Positions 8,534 through 43,038 of a stretch of DNA of 50,375 bases are shown here, in pieces. The stretch's first letter is position 1. Every line of letters starts with the position of its first letter. The notes beneath the pieces are model-generated. The model was given only the letters and a program-made list of their open reading frames with translations, had not been told where the DNA came from and searched no databases. Both the position numbers and the translations under genes were made by a program. This DNA comes from Bacteroidota bacterium. Lineage in GTDB: Bacteria; Bacteroidota; Bacteroidia; Palsa-965. The stretch lies in assembly GCA_013298545.1 (NCBI GenBank), contig JAAFIA010000029.1, positions 1 through 50,375 of the forward strand, written 5' to 3'.

Positions 8534-10738
8534 TTAGTTTCCGTACTCGGAAATGAATTTGATGCGCACCAGTCGGACTTCTTCTTCTGAGTAATCATCT
8601 TCGCCCAATTCATCAAGCGCTGCTTTTAACGAATCGTTTTCAGCTTCGCGGAAGTATTCGATGATGTCCTCTTGCTTGTCGCTATCCATCACATCGTCGA
8701 TGTAGTAATTGATGTTGACACGCGTTCCTGAATGCACGATGCTTTCAATTTCGCTGATCACATCATCAATTTTCAATCCTTTGGCTTCGGCCACATCCAC
8801 CAAATTCAACTTGCGGTCGATGCTTTGAATGATGTGTACTTTGAGACCAGATTTATTGACGATGGATTTTACGAGCATGTCTTGTGGACGCTCAATTTCG
8901 TTTTCTTCAACGTATTTGGAAATGAGGTCGAGGAATGGCGCACCAAATTTTGCGGCTTTACCAGCTCCAACACCATTGATGCGCATGAGTTCATCTTTGG
9001 TGATGGGGTACTGTATCGCCATTTCTTCGAGTGATGTTTCTTGAAAAACAACATAAGGCGGAAGGTTGCGTTTACGGGCTTCTTGGCGGCAGAGATCTTT
9101 CAGCATGGCAAAAAGATTTTCGTCTGCGCCACCCCCGCGCTGCCCGCCCGCCGTTACAATATCATCATCATCGGCATCCGTGCCAATATAATCGTGGTCG
9201 CGGGTAACCGTTATCGGATAAGGCTTTGCTAAGAATGCTTTTCCTGCTTTCGTCAGTTTAAGCAAACCGTAGTTTTCAATGTCTTTCGACAAAAATCCTT
9301 CGAGCACAGCGGTACGTGTTACGGCGTTCCACCAAGCTTCGTTCTTTTCATCGTCAATACCTTTTCCAAAAGAATCGAGTTGATCGTGTTTGTACGATTT
9401 AACCGTAGCTGTAACAATGCCTTGAATAACTTGAATGATGTGCTTGGTTTTGAATTTCTCTTTCACATCGCGAACCGTTTCGAGCACAAGCGTGATGTCT
9501 TCGGTTGCTTCAACTTTGGTTTTCGGATGTTTGCAATTATCGCAGCTATCGCAATTGTCTTGTTTATAGACTTCGCCAAAATAATGCAACAAGACTTTTC
9601 TGCGGCAAGCAGATGACTCGGCGTAAGCAACGGTTTCAAAAAGCAATTGTTTTCCAATTTCCTGTTCGGCAACGGGCTTGCCTTTCATGAATTTTTCGAG
9701 CTTCTGAATATCGTCGTAACTATAAAAAACGAGGCAATTTCCTTCGCCACCATCACGCCCAGCGCGACCCGTTTCTTGGTAGTATCCTTCTAAACTTTTT
9801 GGAATATCGTGGTGAATGACAAAACGCACATCGGGCTTATCAATTCCCATACCGAAGGCAATAGTTGCTACAATGACATCAATTTCTTCCATGAGAAATT
9901 GGTCTTGTGTTTCGGCGCGGGTTTGTGCGTCGAGGCCAGCATGGTACGGACGTGCTTTGACACCATTGACACGAAGCGACTCGGCGAGCTCTTCTACTTT
10001 TTTGCGACTGAGGCAATAGATGATACCCGATTTGCCGGGGTGTTTTTTAACGTATTTGATAACTTCTTTGACAACATCGACTTTGGGTCGTACTTCGTAA
10101 TAGAGGTTACCGCGGTTGAATGAGGATTTGAATACCGCAGCTTCGGTCATGCTCAATGTTTTGAGAATGTCTTGCTGTACTTTGGGCGTAGCGGTAGCGG
10201 TAAGTGCAATGATGGGAACGGTGCCAATGGCTTCGATGATTGGACGAAGACGGCGGTATTCAGGGCGGAAATCGTGGCCCCATTCTGAAATACAATGGGC
10301 TTCATCGATCGCAAAAAACGAAATTTGAATTTCGCGGAAGAACGCTACGTTTTCTTCTTTGGTCAATGATTCAGGCGCAACGTATAAAAGTTTCGTAACA
10401 CCAGCAGAAATATCTTTACGAACTTGTTGAATTTCTGCTTTCGTGAGGGATGAATTGAGCACATGCGCAATGCCATCATCTGTTCCAAAATTGCGAATCG
10501 CATCGACCTGATTTTTCATCAAGGCAATAAGTGGAGAAACAACAATAGCAGTTCCTTCGCTCATCAAAGCGGGCAATTGGTAGCAAAGTGATTTGCCGCC
10601 GCCTGTTGGCATAATGACAAAGGTGTCTTTGCCATCGAGAATGCTGTTGATGATTTCTTCCTGTTGCCCTTTGAATTGATCAAAGCCAAAAAATTTCTGG
10701 AGGCATTCGGTTGGTGTAATACTTTCTGTGTCAATCAT
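8534..10738 (-). CDS. recQ: ATP-dependent DNA helicase RecQ (first paralogue)
   Basis: The 734-residue protein has all RecQ parts. The helicase core shows Walker A MPTGGGKS with Lys49, and IDEAHCISEWGHDFRPEY. The zinc-binding segment is CRRKVLLHYFGEVYKQDNCDSCDNC-like (Cys set near residues 375-400). RQC and HRDC regions follow, the latter around MRINGVGAGKAAKFG. It unwinds DNA 3' to 5' in recombination and repair. The ATG at 10738 is chosen because the upstream extension has no similarity to RecQ. A weaker -7 element lies about 70 nt upstream on the minus strand. A second, diverged RecQ lies near 38 kb. Confidence 0.95.
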   Translation of the reverse strand: MIDTESITPTECLQKFFGFDQFKGQQEEIINSILDGKDTFVIMPTGGGKSLCYQLPALMSEGTAIVVSPLIALMKNQVDAIRNFGTDDGIAHVLNSSLTKAEIQQVRKDISAGVTKLLYVAPESLTKEENVAFFREIQISFFAIDEAHCISEWGHDFRPEYRRLRPIIEAIGTVPIIALTATATPKVQQDILKTLSMTEAAVFKSSFNRGNLYYEVRPKVDVVKEVIKYVKKHPGKSGIIYCLSRKKVEELAESLRVNGVKARPYHAGLDAQTRAETQDQFLMEEIDVIVATIAFGMGIDKPDVRFVIHHDIPKSLEGYYQETGRAGRDGGEGNCLVFYSYDDIQKLEKFMKGKPVAEQEIGKQLLFETVAYAESSACRRKVLLHYFGEVYKQDNCDSCDNCKHPKTKVEATEDITLVLETVRDVKEKFKTKHIIQVIQGIVTATVKSYKHDQLDSFGKGIDDEKNEAWWNAVTRTAVLEGFLSKDIENYGLLKLTKAGKAFLAKPYPITVTRDHDYIGTDADDDDIVTAGGQRGGGADENLFAMLKDLCRQEARKRNLPPYVVFQETSLEEMAIQYPITKDELMRINGVGAGKAAKFGAPFLDLISKYVEENEIERPQDMLVKSIVNKSGLKVHIIQSIDRKLNLVDVAEAKGLKIDDVISEIESIVHSGTRVNINYYIDDVMDSDKQEDIIEYFREAENDSLKAALDELGEDDYSEEEVRLVRIKFISEYGN

Positions 10739-10973
10739 AACGTGATCGCGCGGGAGACGCGATGGTGTAAACGATGAATATGGTGTGGTAGTTAAATGTA
10801 ACGTAAAGATATAATGATTTTTTTTTTCATATCCCAACTTTTCGGAGGTTTTTTTCTATTGTTCTACGAATGGTAAAAATTGTCCGACGAATGTTTCTGT
10901 ATGAGTAAACAGCTTCTTTTGTAGTTTTACGTCTGTTAAATGAACTCTTTTTGAAGAGGCTTAATCTTTTTCT

Positions 10974-11678
10974 GTGGCCCGCATTGCTATTGTTATTCCT
11001 GCGTACAACGAGTCGGCATCGATTGCCGATGTGGTGGCTGATTTGCATCGTGTTGCGCGGGAGCGTGGACTCGATTTGATGCCTGTTGTGGTGAACGATT
11101 GCTCGAAAGACAATACGGGCGAAATTATTGAGGCATTGCCCTGTGTGGCTTTGCATTTACCCGTTAATTTGGGCATTGGCGGTGCGGTACAGACTGGATT
11201 TCGCTATGCGTTTGATAATGGGTTTGATTATGCGATTCAGGTGGATGGCGATGGGCAGCATCCGGCAGATGAAATTCCGAATTTGATCGAAGCGGCAGAA
11301 AAAAATAATTGGGATGTAACCATTGGTTCACGTTTTTTGACGGGCGAAGGCTTTCAGTCCACGTTGATGCGTCGTTCGGGCATTCGTTATTTTATGCGCT
11401 TGAATCGTTTGTTGACAGGTATCACCATTCACGATACCACATCGGGGTTTCGGGTGTTGAATCGGCGTGCGTTGGAGCGGGTGATGCATTATTATCCCGA
11501 CGAGTATCCCGAGCCGGAGGTTTTGGTGATGTATGCGCGGGTGGGGCTGCGGGTGGGGGAAGTTCCGGTTAAAATGCGCGAACGACAAGGCGGAGTTTCT
11601 TCCATCAACATGCGTCGGGCTATTTACTATATGGGTAAAGTAACGTTGGGAACACTTTTTACACGAATTCGTTTTTGA
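10974..11678 (+). CDS. family 2 glycosyltransferase (DPM1-like)
   Basis: The 234-residue protein starts with a GTG codon followed by ARIAIVIPAYNES. It shows VVNDCSKDNT and the DxD motif VDGDGQHP (Asp91, Asp93), with HDTTSGFRVLNR further on. This matches the polyprenyl-phosphate sugar synthase group of GT2 enzymes, which load a sugar from a nucleotide donor onto a lipid carrier. It has no C-terminal membrane segments, so it is a soluble or peripheral enzyme. A TAGTTTTA element near 10922 is a possible promoter. The sugar cannot be predicted. Confidence 0.88.
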   Translation: MARIAIVIPAYNESASIADVVADLHRVARERGLDLMPVVVNDCSKDNTGEIIEALPCVALHLPVNLGIGGAVQTGFRYAFDNGFDYAIQVDGDGQHPADEIPNLIEAAEKNNWDVTIGSRFLTGEGFQSTLMRRSGIRYFMRLNRLLTGITIHDTTSGFRVLNRRALERVMHYYPDEYPEPEVLVMYARVGLRVGEVPVKMRERQGGVSSINMRRAIYYMGKVTLGTLFTRIRF

Positions 11679-11749
11679 ATTTCCGTAACGACGCTGCAAT
11701 AATTTACAGCTAGGTTTCGTTTTATTCCCTCAATCAAGAAATTCTCCTG

Positions 11750-12457
11750 ATGCGTTACCTGTTTTTTATCATGGGTGTTTTGCTGTGCCCTTTTTTAGTT
11801 GCGGCACAGGCAAACGAAGAAACAAAACACAAGAAACTTCCGTGGGGAATCGATTTGCGCTATCATGCCAGCCATGTTTTGATTCAATCGTCACAAGAGG
11901 AAAATGCTGGAACATTTCAAACAAGTAATTTTCTTTCACCCGGAATTGGCGTTTTTGCAAAACCTGTTGAAACAAAATATTTTTCAGTTATCACAGGCAT
12001 GTATTACGAAAATAGAGGAAGTGGCGAGAGTATTTTTATTCGTCCTCCCAGAAGCCACCAAACCATTTTTGCAGCAGATCGTTTTCATTCACTGGTGAAT
12101 GATCTACAAATTCGCGGACACGTTGCTTACAAACAATTTCGGCCCTTTGTTGGTGTTGGCGGAACGCTGACCAGTGTGTTGAAACGCAGTTATGCCAATG
12201 AACAGGATATGGCGTATTGGGAACAGGTTTTCGGAAGTAGTATTGTACGTCCAACAGCTTATCGGACGTTTACGTTTGGTTATGTTTTTGCTGCCGGAAT
12301 CATGTATAACAATACCGTGAGTTTTGAGCTGGCACACCAAACCGATTTACGTCCAGTTCTGAATGAACCGAACGCCATCATGCGACTTGAAACTACTGCA
12401 TTTATTGTGCGATACAACCTGAACGATTTGCTGTCGAAGAAGCAACATAAAAACTAA
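11750..12457 (+). CDS. putative outer-membrane beta-barrel protein
   Basis: The 235-residue product has a signal peptide (MRYLFFIMGVLLCPFLVAAQ) and then alternating aromatic and polar stretches ending in an aromatic-rich strand (ETTAFIVRYNL). This fits the small outer-membrane porin-like fold common in Bacteroidota. A TAGGTTTC element 31 nt upstream is a likely promoter. No substrate or partner is apparent. Confidence 0.65.
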   Translation: MRYLFFIMGVLLCPFLVAAQANEETKHKKLPWGIDLRYHASHVLIQSSQEENAGTFQTSNFLSPGIGVFAKPVETKYFSVITGMYYENRGSGESIFIRPPRSHQTIFAADRFHSLVNDLQIRGHVAYKQFRPFVGVGGTLTSVLKRSYANEQDMAYWEQVFGSSIVRPTAYRTFTFGYVFAAGIMYNNTVSFELAHQTDLRPVLNEPNAIMRLETTAFIVRYNLNDLLSKKQHKN

Positions 12458-18830: not shown

Positions 18831-19658
18831 ATGCGTATGCATACAACACCACTACTTCCGCACACCGATTCGGGCGGTACAAATCCGGTTCTTGTTTTTT
18901 TGCACGGGCTTGCTGAATCGCGCCACGTATGGCAATTCATGCAATCGGAACTTCAAGCAAAATTTCGCTGCATTGCATTCGACTTGCCTGGACACGGCGA
19001 TGCGTATGCCGTTCCTTGTGCATTTACCATGACCACTTATGCCGAACATGTCTTGCAAAGCCTTGACATACTTGGCATCAATTCGTATGTACTCGTTGGA
19101 CATTCGATGGGCGGACAGATTGCAACGGTCATGGCCTTGCGTGCGCCAACGTGTATTGAAAAATTAATTTTGCTCGCTCCTGCGGGTATAGAAGTATTTA
19201 CTGCCGACGAAGCGGCCAAATTGAATGCTTGGGCTAGTCAAACGTATCGTCAACAATTTTCGGCTGTGCAATTGCAACAAGCATTTTTTCAGCATTTCAA
19301 AAAGCAAACAGCAGCGAGTGCGTTTTTAGTAAACCTACACGAGCAAAATTACCAGTCCGAGCGATTTGCAAATTTTCAAGAAGCCATGATTCGTTCTACC
19401 GCAGGTATGCTTGCCGAGCCAGTAGCATTGTTCATCAAGCAAATCGAGCAACCCATTTTAGTGATGTATGGCGATCATGATTTATTTATTCCGAATCGGT
19501 TTATGCATGCCAGCCTAACACAAAACGATTTGTTGGTTTATATCCAAAAGCACGCAAAAAAAGCGGTTACAAAACTTATTCCGTTGGCAGGTCATTACCT
19601 TCCGTTGGAATATCCTGAGTTTTGTTCGCAAGAAATGTTGAAATTTATAAAGGAGTGA
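18831..19658 (+). CDS. alpha/beta hydrolase
   Basis: The 275-residue protein shows the classic fold: HGLAESRHVW for the oxyanion region, nucleophile Ser92 in VGHSMGGQ, acid Asp215 in MYGDHD and base His255 in PLAGHYLPLEYP. The substrate is unknown. Family members include esterases, epoxide hydrolases and C-C hydrolases. A TATCTTCG element ends 3 nt before the ATG, so the mRNA may be leaderless. Confidence 0.88.
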   Translation: MRMHTTPLLPHTDSGGTNPVLVFLHGLAESRHVWQFMQSELQAKFRCIAFDLPGHGDAYAVPCAFTMTTYAEHVLQSLDILGINSYVLVGHSMGGQIATVMALRAPTCIEKLILLAPAGIEVFTADEAAKLNAWASQTYRQQFSAVQLQQAFFQHFKKQTAASAFLVNLHEQNYQSERFANFQEAMIRSTAGMLAEPVALFIKQIEQPILVMYGDHDLFIPNRFMHASLTQNDLLVYIQKHAKKAVTKLIPLAGHYLPLEYPEFCSQEMLKFIKE

Positions 19659-19659
19659 T

Positions 19660-19667
19660 TACCTTTG
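19660..19667 (+). promoter_or_regulatory. promoter of the tRNA-Leu region (TACCTTTG)
   Basis: A perfect TAnnTTTG lies 11 nt before the first tRNA-Leu-like 5' half (19679). This is the expected distance for a tRNA promoter, but the intact tRNA only begins about 240 nt further on. Confidence 0.7.
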
Positions 19668-19678
19668 TCCAACATTAC

Positions 19679-19746
19679 GCGGATGTGTCGTAATTGGTAG
19701 CCGAGCCAGACTTATCCCGATAGTTATCGGGATGGTGCCGCGAGGC
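19679..19746 (+). pseudogene. truncated tRNA-Leu copy 1
   Basis: This copy matches the tRNA-Leu from its first base to the anticodon-loop sequence CAGACTTA, where the next bases are replaced by a 20-nt palindrome (ATCCCGAT-AGTT-ATCGGGAT). The variable-arm sequence GGTGCCGCGAGGC resumes and then stops. No T arm or 3' acceptor strand is present, so it cannot fold into a tRNA. Confidence 0.8.
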
Positions 19747-19938
19747 TCGAATAAAATAAAAGAGTAGAATAAATTGCGGATGTGTCGTAATTGGTAGCCG
19801 AGCCAGACTTAGTGTCGTAATTGGTAGCCGAGCCAGACTTATCCCGATAGTTATCGGGATGGTGCCGCGAGGCTCGAATAAAATAAAAGAGTAGAATAAA
19901 TTGCGGATGTGTCGTAATTGGTAGCCGAGCCAGACTTA
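19685..19938 (+). repeat. 127-bp perfect tandem duplication
   Basis: Bases 19685-19811 and 19812-19938 are identical by eye. Each unit holds most of a tRNA-Leu 5' half, the palindrome, the AT-rich spacer and the beginning of the next 5' half. The event made the array of fragments upstream of the real tRNA. It may be recent, or an assembly artefact. Confidence 0.85.
19776..19873 (+). pseudogene. truncated tRNA-Leu copies 2 and 3
   Basis: A 36-nt copy of the tRNA-Leu 5' half (19776-19811) is joined directly to another copy that lacks the first 6 nt and carries the palindrome and variable-arm remnant (19812-19873). Neither has a 3' half. Confidence 0.75.
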
Positions 19939-19984
19939 GGATCTGGTGCCGCGAGGCGTATGGGTTCGAGTCCCCTCATCCGCA
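19903..19984 (+). tRNA. tRNA-Leu (anticodon UAG)
   Basis: The 82-nt gene has matching acceptor arms GCGGATG/CATCCGC, an anticodon stem CCAGA/TCTGG with TAG in the loop, the long variable arm of a leucine tRNA (TGCCGCGAGGCGTA) and a T arm GGGTTCGAGTCCC. CCA is not encoded. A hairpin terminator follows. Confidence 0.93.
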
Positions 19985-19985
19985 C

Positions 19986-20017
19986 AAAGGAGAAACAAAA
20001 CTGTTTCTCCTTTTTTT
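19986..20017 (+). terminator. terminator of the tRNA-Leu
   Basis: The arms AAAGGAGAAAC and GTTTCTCCTTT have a short loop and a long T run directly after the tRNA. Confidence 0.88.
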
Positions 20018-20047
20018 ATTCAATGTATTATTTCGTACCGCTCTTTA

Positions 20048-21274
20048 CTATTTACACCCGACAGTCATTTTATCTCTAGCCGCTTCTGGATGTCCCATTT
20101 GTTGTGCTTTGGAGAGATCTTCGCAACACGCTTTTTTGTTTTCTAATTTGTAATAACACTTGCTTCGGATATAATAAGCTTCGGCACTTGGATTGTTTTT
20201 GATGGCAACAGACAACGCATCTACAGCTTCTTGAAATTTATTTTCTTCAAACAATATTTTTCCAATATATAGCGATGCTTCTGCGTTATTTCCATCGGCC
20301 GCAAGTACTTTATTGAAATCGGTTTTGGCCATTGCATATTTCGACTTGCCTTGCATGTAGTTTGCTTTTCCGCGCGCGAGTAATGTGGGAACATCGTCTT
20401 TTTTTAGGGCCAATGCTTTGTTGTAGTCTTTGACCGCTGCTGCCCAGTTTTTTTGTTTTACAAATAGATCACCACGCAGACGGATGACATCAATATCTTT
20501 TGTTTTCATGATGTCAATCAATGTGCTGTAATCTTTGATGGCTTCAGCATCGCGGCTGAGTGCGGTGAGGGAAGCTGCGCGGATTTTATACACTTCTTCG
20601 CCCGTTTGTTTCAGGGCAATCGCTTTTCCAAGTTCGGCAACCGCTTGGTCGTGTTTGTTTTGTGTGGCGTAAATTTTACCCAACTCAAAATGCGGGCCGG
20701 CGAGGGTAGGCGTGAGTGCTGCTGCTTTATTAAAATCGTTTATGGCCTCGGTTGTTTTATTCGATTTGTTTTGAAGCAACCCACGTTGGTAATAAATCTC
20801 ACCGTTTTTCCCATCGAGCGAAATGGCTTTGTTGAAATCGGCAAGCGCTAAGTCATACTGCGCCGTTTTGATGTACAGTTTTCCGCGATTGAGATACGTA
20901 TCGACAAAATCTTGATTGAGTTTTTGAGCTACTGAATAATCTGCAATGGCATTTTGATCTTGGCCCATATCGGTAAAGACAACAGCACGCCAGAAAAAAG
21001 TAGGGGCAAAGCGTGGATTAAGTTTTGCCGATTGGTTAAAATCTGAAAGGGCTAAATCTTTCTTCCCGAGATTGTAGTTTGCCCGCCCGCGATCAGTCCA
21101 CGCTTCAAAATAAGTTGCATCTGCTTTAATCGCAAGATCAAATTGGGCAATTGCTCCGGCATAGTTTCCCGCTTTAAAAAGTTCCATGCCTTTTTCGTGA
21201 AATAAATAGGCTGGTTTTTGTGCAAATAAGGTGAGTGGGAACAAAAAAAGAAGGAAAAGCAAGTGTTTTTTCAT
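20048..21274 (-). CDS. exported TPR repeat protein
   Basis: The 408-residue protein has a signal peptide (MKKHLLFLLFLFPLTLFAQ) and about eleven tetratricopeptide repeats covering nearly the whole chain, such as AYLFHEKGMELFKAGNYAGAIAQFDLAI. TPR proteins act as scaffolds, and this one should be periplasmic. The C-terminal region has a Cys pair (KKACCEDL) and a final Cys. No partner is visible in the neighbourhood. Confidence 0.85.
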   Translation of the reverse strand: MKKHLLFLLFLFPLTLFAQKPAYLFHEKGMELFKAGNYAGAIAQFDLAIKADATYFEAWTDRGRANYNLGKKDLALSDFNQSAKLNPRFAPTFFWRAVVFTDMGQDQNAIADYSVAQKLNQDFVDTYLNRGKLYIKTAQYDLALADFNKAISLDGKNGEIYYQRGLLQNKSNKTTEAINDFNKAAALTPTLAGPHFELGKIYATQNKHDQAVAELGKAIALKQTGEEVYKIRAASLTALSRDAEAIKDYSTLIDIMKTKDIDVIRLRGDLFVKQKNWAAAVKDYNKALALKKDDVPTLLARGKANYMQGKSKYAMAKTDFNKVLAADGNNAEASLYIGKILFEENKFQEAVDALSVAIKNNPSAEAYYIRSKCYYKLENKKACCEDLSKAQQMGHPEAARDKMTVGCK

Positions 21275-41847: not shown

Positions 41848-42196
41848 CCGCAGGATTTGCAATCCTGCGGCTGCGTAAATTACTTATAAGAATTAAAGTG
41901 CATGAAATTAAAGTGTAACGATTGTGTTTTGAAAAATCGTGTTTACCGCAGGATTTCAAATCCTGCGGAGTGAAGCATAAAAGTTTAACGTAAATAGAAA
42001 TAAAGCAAAAATTATGAAGCAAGGCGTAAAGCAAACGATCAGAACAGACCGAGCGTACGCATTCCCCCCCCCGCTCCGCAGGATTTGCAATCCTGCGGCT
42101 GCGTAAATTACTTGTAAGAATTAAAGTGCATGAAATTAAAGTGTAACGATTGTGTTTTGAAAAATCGTGTTTACCGCAGGATTTCAAATCCTGCGG
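41848..42196. repeat. REP-like palindromes upstream of the transposase
   Basis: Palindromes with arms CCGCAGGATT and AATCCTGCGG and a 3-nt loop occur at 41848-41870, 41946-41968, 42076-42098 and 42174-42196. Half copies are at 41358 and 41822. They are of the kind mobilised by REP-associated tyrosine transposases. Confidence 0.85.
42014..42063 (+). pseudogene. 5' fragment of the REP transposase gene
   Basis: The first codons of the transposase (MKQGVKQTI...) with one changed residue stop after about 16 codons and run into the next palindrome. Confidence 0.8.
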
Positions 42197-42241
42197 AGCG
42201 AAGCATAAAAGTTTAACGTAAATAGAAATAAAGCAAAAATT

Positions 42242-42814
42242 ATGAAGCAAGGCGTAAAGCAAACGATCAAAACAGACCGAGCGTACGCATTAACCTTAAC
42301 GGTTGAAAAATGGGTAGATGTTTTTACACGCAAAAATCACCGCGACGCACTTATTGAATCGCTTCGTTATTGTCAAAAGCATAAAGGATTGATTGTCTAT
42401 GCGTATTGTATTATGAGCAATCACGTTCATTTGATTGCTGCAACGCATGAACCATTTCTATTAGAAGAAACCATACGCGATTTTAAAAAGTTTACATCAA
42501 AAAAGATTATTGAACAATTACATGCCGAACCCGAAAGTAGAAGCGAATGGATGCTGCCTATGTTTGCGTCAAGTGCAAAGCCAAGTACAAAACATACTTT
42601 TTATAAATTTTGGAAAACAGGAAATCATGCGATTGAATTATATAACGAAAAATTCACTTGGGATAAAATAAATTATATTCATAACAACCCCGTAAAAGCA
42701 GGATTGGTGAGAGAACCGCAAGATTGGATTTATTCTTCTGCAACAAATTATTTTGGACTTGAAAGTGTTCTTGATGTTGAAATTGTCAGTCCTAGATTAA
42801 TTACGGTTAGATGA
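42242..42814 (+). CDS. REP-associated tyrosine transposase (RAYT)
   Basis: The 190-residue Y1 transposase has the HUH motif MSNHVHLI (His61, His63) and a catalytic tyrosine candidate at Tyr145 in INYIHNNPVKAGLV. RAYTs nick single-stranded DNA at REP hairpins. Here the gene is surrounded by many such hairpins on both sides, which makes it a likely intact element. The upstream tandem copy is truncated. Confidence 0.92.
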   Translation: MKQGVKQTIKTDRAYALTLTVEKWVDVFTRKNHRDALIESLRYCQKHKGLIVYAYCIMSNHVHLIAATHEPFLLEETIRDFKKFTSKKIIEQLHAEPESRSEWMLPMFASSAKPSTKHTFYKFWKTGNHAIELYNEKFTWDKINYIHNNPVKAGLVREPQDWIYSSATNYFGLESVLDVEIVSPRLITVR

Positions 42815-43038
42815 TTTTTCAAATCGTGTTTGCCGCAGGATTGCAAATCCTGCGGAGCGGTGAGGTCGAAATTGTCAGTCCTAGATTAATTACGGTTAGA
42901 TGATTTTTTAAATGGTGTTTGCCGCAGGATTGCAAATCCTGCGGAGCGGTGTTGAAATTGTCAGTCCTAGATTAATTACGATTAAATGATTTTTAAATGG
43001 TGTTTGCCGCAGGATTGCAAATCATGCGGAGCTAATAG
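42779..43038 (+). repeat. three tandem REP-containing units
   Basis: Three units of 85-89 bp start with GAAATTGTCAGTCCTAGATT and contain a palindrome (42833-42855, 42922-42944, 43007-43029). The first overlaps the transposase 3' end. Later copies have point changes, including a broken palindrome arm in the last. Confidence 0.85.

Follow-up and report, generated by a model that had tools for sequence, protein, structure and literature searches.

Hairpin-bearing truncated tRNA copies beside intact tRNA genes: a recurrent repeat architecture in Bacteroidota

Introduction

Few genes are annotated as well as those for tRNAs, yet some of these have truncated copies with a hairpin beside them, which raises the question of how such copies arise and whether they serve the gene that they accompany. 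We addressed this question at a tRNA-Leu(UAG) locus of a Bacteroidota bacterium (GTDB lineage Bacteroidota; Bacteroidia; Palsa-965; GCA_013298545.1; 4.53 Mb in 154 contigs), using a stretch of 50,375 nucleotides (contig JAAFIA010000029.1), which is hereafter called the window. A first-pass annotation, made from the letters of the window alone, had read the locus as a palindromic insertion accompanied by partial tRNA duplication, followed by a recent expansion. It also proposed that the transcript might give rise to tRNA-half-like RNAs or interfere with maturation of the tRNA by competition.

Structure of the tRNA-Leu(UAG) array

All features of the array lie on the + strand. It is preceded by the element TACCTTTG (19660-19667), which fits the Bacteroidetes -7 consensus TAnnTTTG; this element lies 11 nt upstream of the first tRNA copy, with a TTG another 19 nt upstream, and a sigma-70 scan of the locus found no + strand site. 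The first truncated copy (19679-19714) comprises nt 1-36 of tRNA-Leu, is identical to 19903-19938, and runs directly into the palindrome TCCCGATAGTTATCGGGA (19715-19732; 20 nt, 19714-19733, if the A/T ends are counted), which has the form TCCCGAT-AGTT-ATCGGGA in both units and replaces tRNA nt 37-41 (GGATC, the 3' side of the anticodon loop and the start of the 3' stem). Comparison with the intact tRNA showed that the sequence then resumes with nt 42-55 (19733-19746; remnant of the 3' anticodon stem and variable arm), followed by an AT-rich spacer of 29 nt (19747-19775). A second 5' copy (nt 1-36; 19776-19811) stops at a duplication junction, where its nt 36 is fused directly to nt 7 of the next copy at 19812; the latter (nt 7-36; 19812-19841) opens the second repeat unit and leads into a palindrome identical to the first (19842-19859) and into a second copy of nt 42-55 plus spacer (19860-19902). 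The two units form a perfect 127-bp tandem duplication (19685-19938), 19685-19811 being identical to 19812-19938. The sole intact tRNA of the locus, tRNA-Leu(UAG), stands last (19903-19985; ARAGORN, anticodon tag; Rfam RF00005, 49.6 bits) and is followed by an intrinsic-terminator-like hairpin (19986-20013), the only one found by a terminator scan of the locus, which gave none between the truncated units and the intact tRNA. This layout, from the promoter-like site and the AGTT-looped interruption of the anticodon arm to the complete gene at the end, is as the first-pass annotation had described it.

From the first copy up to the intact gene, the array spans 224 bp and contains no ORF of at least 90 aa, and a search of 19500-20100 against Rfam (E up to 1) gave no intron match, so that a group I intron in the tRNA-Leu anticodon loop was not encountered. 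Energy-based folding predicts that the acceptor strand of the first copy could pair with the 3' strand of the intact tRNA. The copy number is given as assembled, and short-read assembly may collapse exact 127-bp repeats. A chance origin of the array is excluded, because the 127-bp repeat is perfect, the palindrome abuts tRNA sequence twice, and a reversed control pattern had no match in the whole genome. The exact junction of the window is absent from the genome contig collection searched, and the best match by coverage in a plasmid collection was a Bacteroides finegoldii plasmid, covering 35% of the query.

Units in the same genome and in congeneric species

The genome-wide search that the first-pass annotation had called for was run with CCCGATN4ATCGGG and recovered five sites at four independent loci, all four of them inside tRNA sequence: the window array, Leu(UAA) on contig C100, Thr(CGU) on C66, and the D-loop of a full-length tRNA within a cluster on C74. 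A variant palindrome was found upstream of Gly(GCC), also on C100. The cluster on C74 (L264; G000:C74 20000-39000) contains 14 tRNA genes, with tRNAs at 9702-12445 and an extra tRNA-like sequence carrying TCCCGATAGTTATCGGGA in its D-loop; apparent RtcB RNA ligase and TROVE/Ro60-like genes lie on either side of it and NAD-related genes before it, all named by eye from translations.

Comparison with relatives gave a mixed picture: the tRNA-Leu(UAG) orthologues of four congeners are without a unit, and a fifth congener (G005) has four units of ~98 bp each upstream of the same gene. The G005 array differs from that of the window in the position of the palindrome within the anticodon arm and in its unrelated spacer, and genes for Lys, Asp, Thr and Gly tRNAs in other families carry units as well. 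Palindrome insertion with partial duplication and later expansion thus fits the locus well and is strengthened by the many comparable loci, but a single local event does not: a one-off origin is ruled out by the units at Leu(UAA), Gly(GCC) and Thr(CGU) of the same genome, by the differently built array of the congener and by the units of many other species.

Recurrence and anatomy across Bacteroidota

We scanned 84,980 species genomes for the palindrome ~100 nt ahead of a T-arm and obtained at least 119 loci, nearly all from Bacteroidota among the matches listed. Most of the analysable units among these matches (88 of 117) are clean copies in which the tRNA sequence, beginning at nt 1, directly adjoins the palindrome; the last tRNA position is nt 12-14 in 58 of them, nt 25-30 in 24, and another (nt 9, 21 or 22) in six. 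Ends at nt 12-14 or 25-28 account for 78 of the 88 clean copies (p ~1e-45 against uniform placement, for units that share ancestry; the p-values and E-values of this study generally refer to small sets of this kind). D-type units break off at nt 12-14, and their tRNA sequence mostly picks up again at nt 17-19; in anticodon-type units, which leave the tRNA at nt 25-28 and re-enter it at nt 44-46, the palindrome takes the exact place of the anticodon arm. Past the palindrome, tRNA homology ends after a median of 13 nt in the D-type and 14 nt in the anticodon type (14 nt in the window); because this distance is ~13 nt in both types, the position of the break appears to be set by the hairpin and not by the position in the tRNA. 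Units are 53-107 bp long, most amino acid isotypes are represented among those listed, and an intact tRNA of the same isotype stands after the truncated units. Some copies have palindromes in both arms (e.g., L067, L142, L158). It was an early impression from array periodicity that the leader is always duplicated, but this was rejected, the first unit often beginning at or just before tRNA nt 1.

A promoter-like TTTG element precedes many units, and at many loci the units separate the tRNA from a promoter-like site; similar units recur in several Pedobacter species and in Daejeonella/Sphingobacterium. Mirror-image 3' units, consisting of 3' tRNA parts with a palindromic anticodon arm plus terminator copies, were found downstream of tRNA-Ala(GGC) in two genomes (G027 and G223), both of which have 5' units upstream of the same gene too (eight in G223). 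With narrow patterns, truncated hairpin-bearing neighbours occur in ~5-17% of the sampled Bacteroidia genomes; a broader pattern includes natural tRNA stems or chance matches.

Several loci depart from the common form. Full-length tRNA-like sequences in which the palindrome constitutes the anticodon arm were seen at L147 (7596-7900), where the array precedes an intact tRNA-Pro, and at L155, and some of them are called tRNAs with anticodon ccat by ARAGORN. A Val(UAC) locus (L387, genome G085) has full-length downstream copies with the anticodon arm TTCCGGTATTACACCGGAA, called tRNA-Stop(tta) by ARAGORN. In two different species, units at a Val (L081) and an Ala gene (L086) both continue from the palindrome into CAGGCAACTTCGCTA, which is not tRNA sequence. 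Similar hairpin-bearing partial tRNAs appear under the labels of other phyla (L084, L101 (Phycisphaerae), L119 (Micavibrio), L153 (Peribacteraceae)), possibly reflecting binning errors or a wider spread.

Association of truncated copies with hairpins

A 5' copy passed a strict threshold at 81 of 126 tRNA genes close to the palindrome, in a set selected for it; among tRNA genes of the listed loci without the palindrome close by, a 5' copy was present in two of 62, one of these with a variant palindrome. Searches that require the palindrome cannot gauge its conservation. When 395 genomes were searched for D-arms lying close together, with no palindrome required, 21 truncated copies remained after intact tandem tRNAs and non-tRNA matches had been removed by eye; 16 of these have a perfect stem of at least 6 bp, nearly all the others have a degenerate one, and a single copy (G144) has none. 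The palindromes in truncated copies also belong to other families, including TCCCGCAC...GTGCGGGA, TCCCGCA...TGCGGGA, TCCCGGC...GCCGGGA and TCCGCCGCGGCGGA. In two genomes of one genus (G153 and G182), a common Val(UAC) unit with identical flanks carries TCCCGATAGCTATCGGGA in one and TCCGCCGCGGCGGA in the other; G182 has a second unit, of the anticodon type, between the Val(UAC) unit and the intact gene.

In the anticodon-arm units the loop of the palindrome resembles the anticodon loop of the tRNA itself (p=0.0006 in a first set; p=0.11, not significant, in a second sample). A derivation of the D-type palindrome loop from the D-loop was rejected (p=0.95). A few Gly units hinted that a complement of the acceptor strand in the spacer would allow a folded mini-tRNA, but this was not significant overall (p=0.33).

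Dispersal of the palindrome and Y1 transposases

The palindrome is present in 43 of 99 Bacteroidia genomes with 0-93 copies per genome, and the reversed control gave none. Only six of 82 sampled sites have an intact tRNA at most 250 nt away, and five of these six proved on inspection to be tRNA fragments interrupted at an arm. Away from tRNAs, 13 of 76 sites form the tip of a longer inverted repeat (against 5% expected; p ~1e-4), and 16 non-tRNA sites showed no flank duplication save for one 10-nt match of chance length. Full-length, apparently isolated tRNAs with the palindrome in the D-loop occur on C74 of the own genome and on viral contigs (L224/L227), suggesting that insertion needs no neighbouring copy. 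Both L224 and L227 are IMG/VR contigs; they agree in local sequence, and the gene concerned is tRNA-Met-like.

Y1 transposases were found in all ten genomes tested, and none of 20 Y1 loci in ten genomes was a cognate transposase flanked by the tRNA palindrome; L196 (G077) was the only one of the 20 with a related hairpin, and its palindrome lies at a distance. The possibility that the palindrome is the REP of a RAYT in its own genome was rejected, the Y1 genes there being flanked by other hairpins. The window itself contains a RAYT-type Y1 transposase (Y1_Tnp frame 42284-42571) in a REPtron at 41848-42944, with six copies of the hairpin CCGCAGGATT...AATCCTGCGG across both flanks, the sequence of which is unrelated to the tRNA palindrome.

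Origin of the truncated copies

We consider it about an even chance (~0.5) that the window array belongs to a Bacteroidota-wide class of tRNA-derived repeats, in which the entry of a mobile REP-like hairpin into a tRNA arm is coupled to a break through which the gene is partly duplicated. A dispersed hairpin, most often TCCCGATN4ATCGGGA, would enter or replace a tRNA arm (the D-loop, the anticodon arm or, more rarely, the T-loop). Upon insertion or shortly afterwards, synthesis or repair of the DNA would break off ~13 nt past the hairpin and start anew on an unchanged copy, at its leader or, for 3' units, at its trailer. This would yield an outer truncated, hairpin-bearing copy beside an intact gene, and the cell would survive because the intact gene is retained. 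The homologous repeats might then expand into arrays through unequal crossing-over, as in the 127-bp duplication of the window. A hairpin insertion with a break rejoined to an intact copy would explain why the damaged copy lies outside, why its inner end is fixed, why mirror cases exist and why copies without a hairpin are scarce. The mobility of the palindrome, its coupling to the duplication and the dispensability of the units are what we infer here. Against this mechanism, the palindrome could be linked to no enzyme that would mobilise it, a resemblance to the anticodon loop is not expected from plain insertion, and units that persist in related species could also mean selection.

In a more general and rather less probable version, a Bacteroidota process would target the hairpin loops of tRNAs (D-, anticodon- and T-loop), and the same event would duplicate part of the gene with an intact copy always kept; the anticodon loop may be preserved while the stem is exchanged. 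If insertion and rescue by duplication are indeed coupled, the units provide a natural record of tandem duplications caused by hairpins and show how a repeat enters an essential gene without killing its host. To our knowledge, such a self-sparing mode of insertion has been found in no other mobile element.

Alternatively, the truncated copy and its hairpin might form a cis-acting element of the pre-tRNA (for folding, RNase P processing or antitermination), in which a hairpin of any sequence is selected. The position of many units between a promoter-like site and the tRNA would suit such a leader, as would the hairpin in nearly all truncated copies regardless of sequence, the G153/G182 pair, which differs in both strands of the stem with the hairpin kept, and the recurrence in Pedobacter and Daejeonella/Sphingobacterium. 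However, the units are sporadic over isotypes and species, four congeners do without one at tRNA-Leu(UAG), the 3' mirror units lie beyond the terminator, pairing with the acceptor strand is not conserved (p=0.33), and the exchange of palindromes argues against a conserved role, which makes a functional leader unlikely in our view. We regard template switching during replication alone as improbable to a similar degree; here a polymerase halted by tRNA hairpins would pick up a palindrome at another site before slipping back, and a mobile element would play no part. Such switching agrees with the inner break ~13 nt past the hairpin in both types, the several palindrome families at the same sites and the short matches at the junctions of some arrays, but one palindrome recurs phylum-wide as a dispersed repeat, also where no duplication exists. 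An assembly artefact or collapsed repeat is hardly credible, for although some arrays reach contig ends or hold runs of N, the window array lies 19.7 kb inside its contig and the same architecture appears in many independent assemblies.

Comparison with known systems

A search of the open-access full-text literature found no description of hairpin-tagged truncated tRNA copies, the palindrome sequence included, and the process by which tRNA arms acquire hairpins while the gene is partly duplicated is apparently undescribed so far. REP-type repeats and Y1 transposases have been reported in Bacteroidetes (PMC6006769, PMC3733652), and a tetranucleotide foot, GTAG or GTGG, lies 0-2 nt 5' of the REP hairpin (PMC6006769). 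The tRNA palindrome resembles REP/REPIN sequences mobilised by TnpA-REP (RAYT) as a short palindrome with many dispersed genomic copies, although the own genome has only five sites, all tRNA-derived. It differs in its placement in tRNA arms with partial tRNA duplication, in that no cognate transposase was found, and in having no consistent GT[AG]G foot: the flanks in the window read ...GACTTA/TGGTGCC..., and in most other units the palindrome is preceded by GCTC(A), GAGCA or GAGCG, with GTGG only in some Leu copies.

The palindromic elements of Rickettsia are much longer and are known mostly from protein genes. They are usually inserted in frame there and are not known to come with partial gene duplication, unlike the tRNA units, whose palindromes measure 18-20 bp and, in the window, lie in the tRNA leader. 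One such element resides in a tRNA pseudouridine synthase gene (PMC3733652), and the likeness is that palindromic repeats enter functional genes that survive.

Where partial tRNA copies are concerned, two further systems invite comparison. Phages and ICEs that integrate into tRNA genes leave a partial tRNA copy beside the intact gene, but the 224 bp of the window array hold no integrase or element body between the copies, and the units retain mostly 5' tRNA parts. The 178-bp repeats of E. coli tyrT (rtT RNA) are tandem and carry part of the tRNA beside the intact gene; they contain the 3' tRNA end and are not known to have a palindrome in an arm or to recur over isotypes. The units described here are natural fusions of tRNA 5' parts to the pre-tRNA leader.
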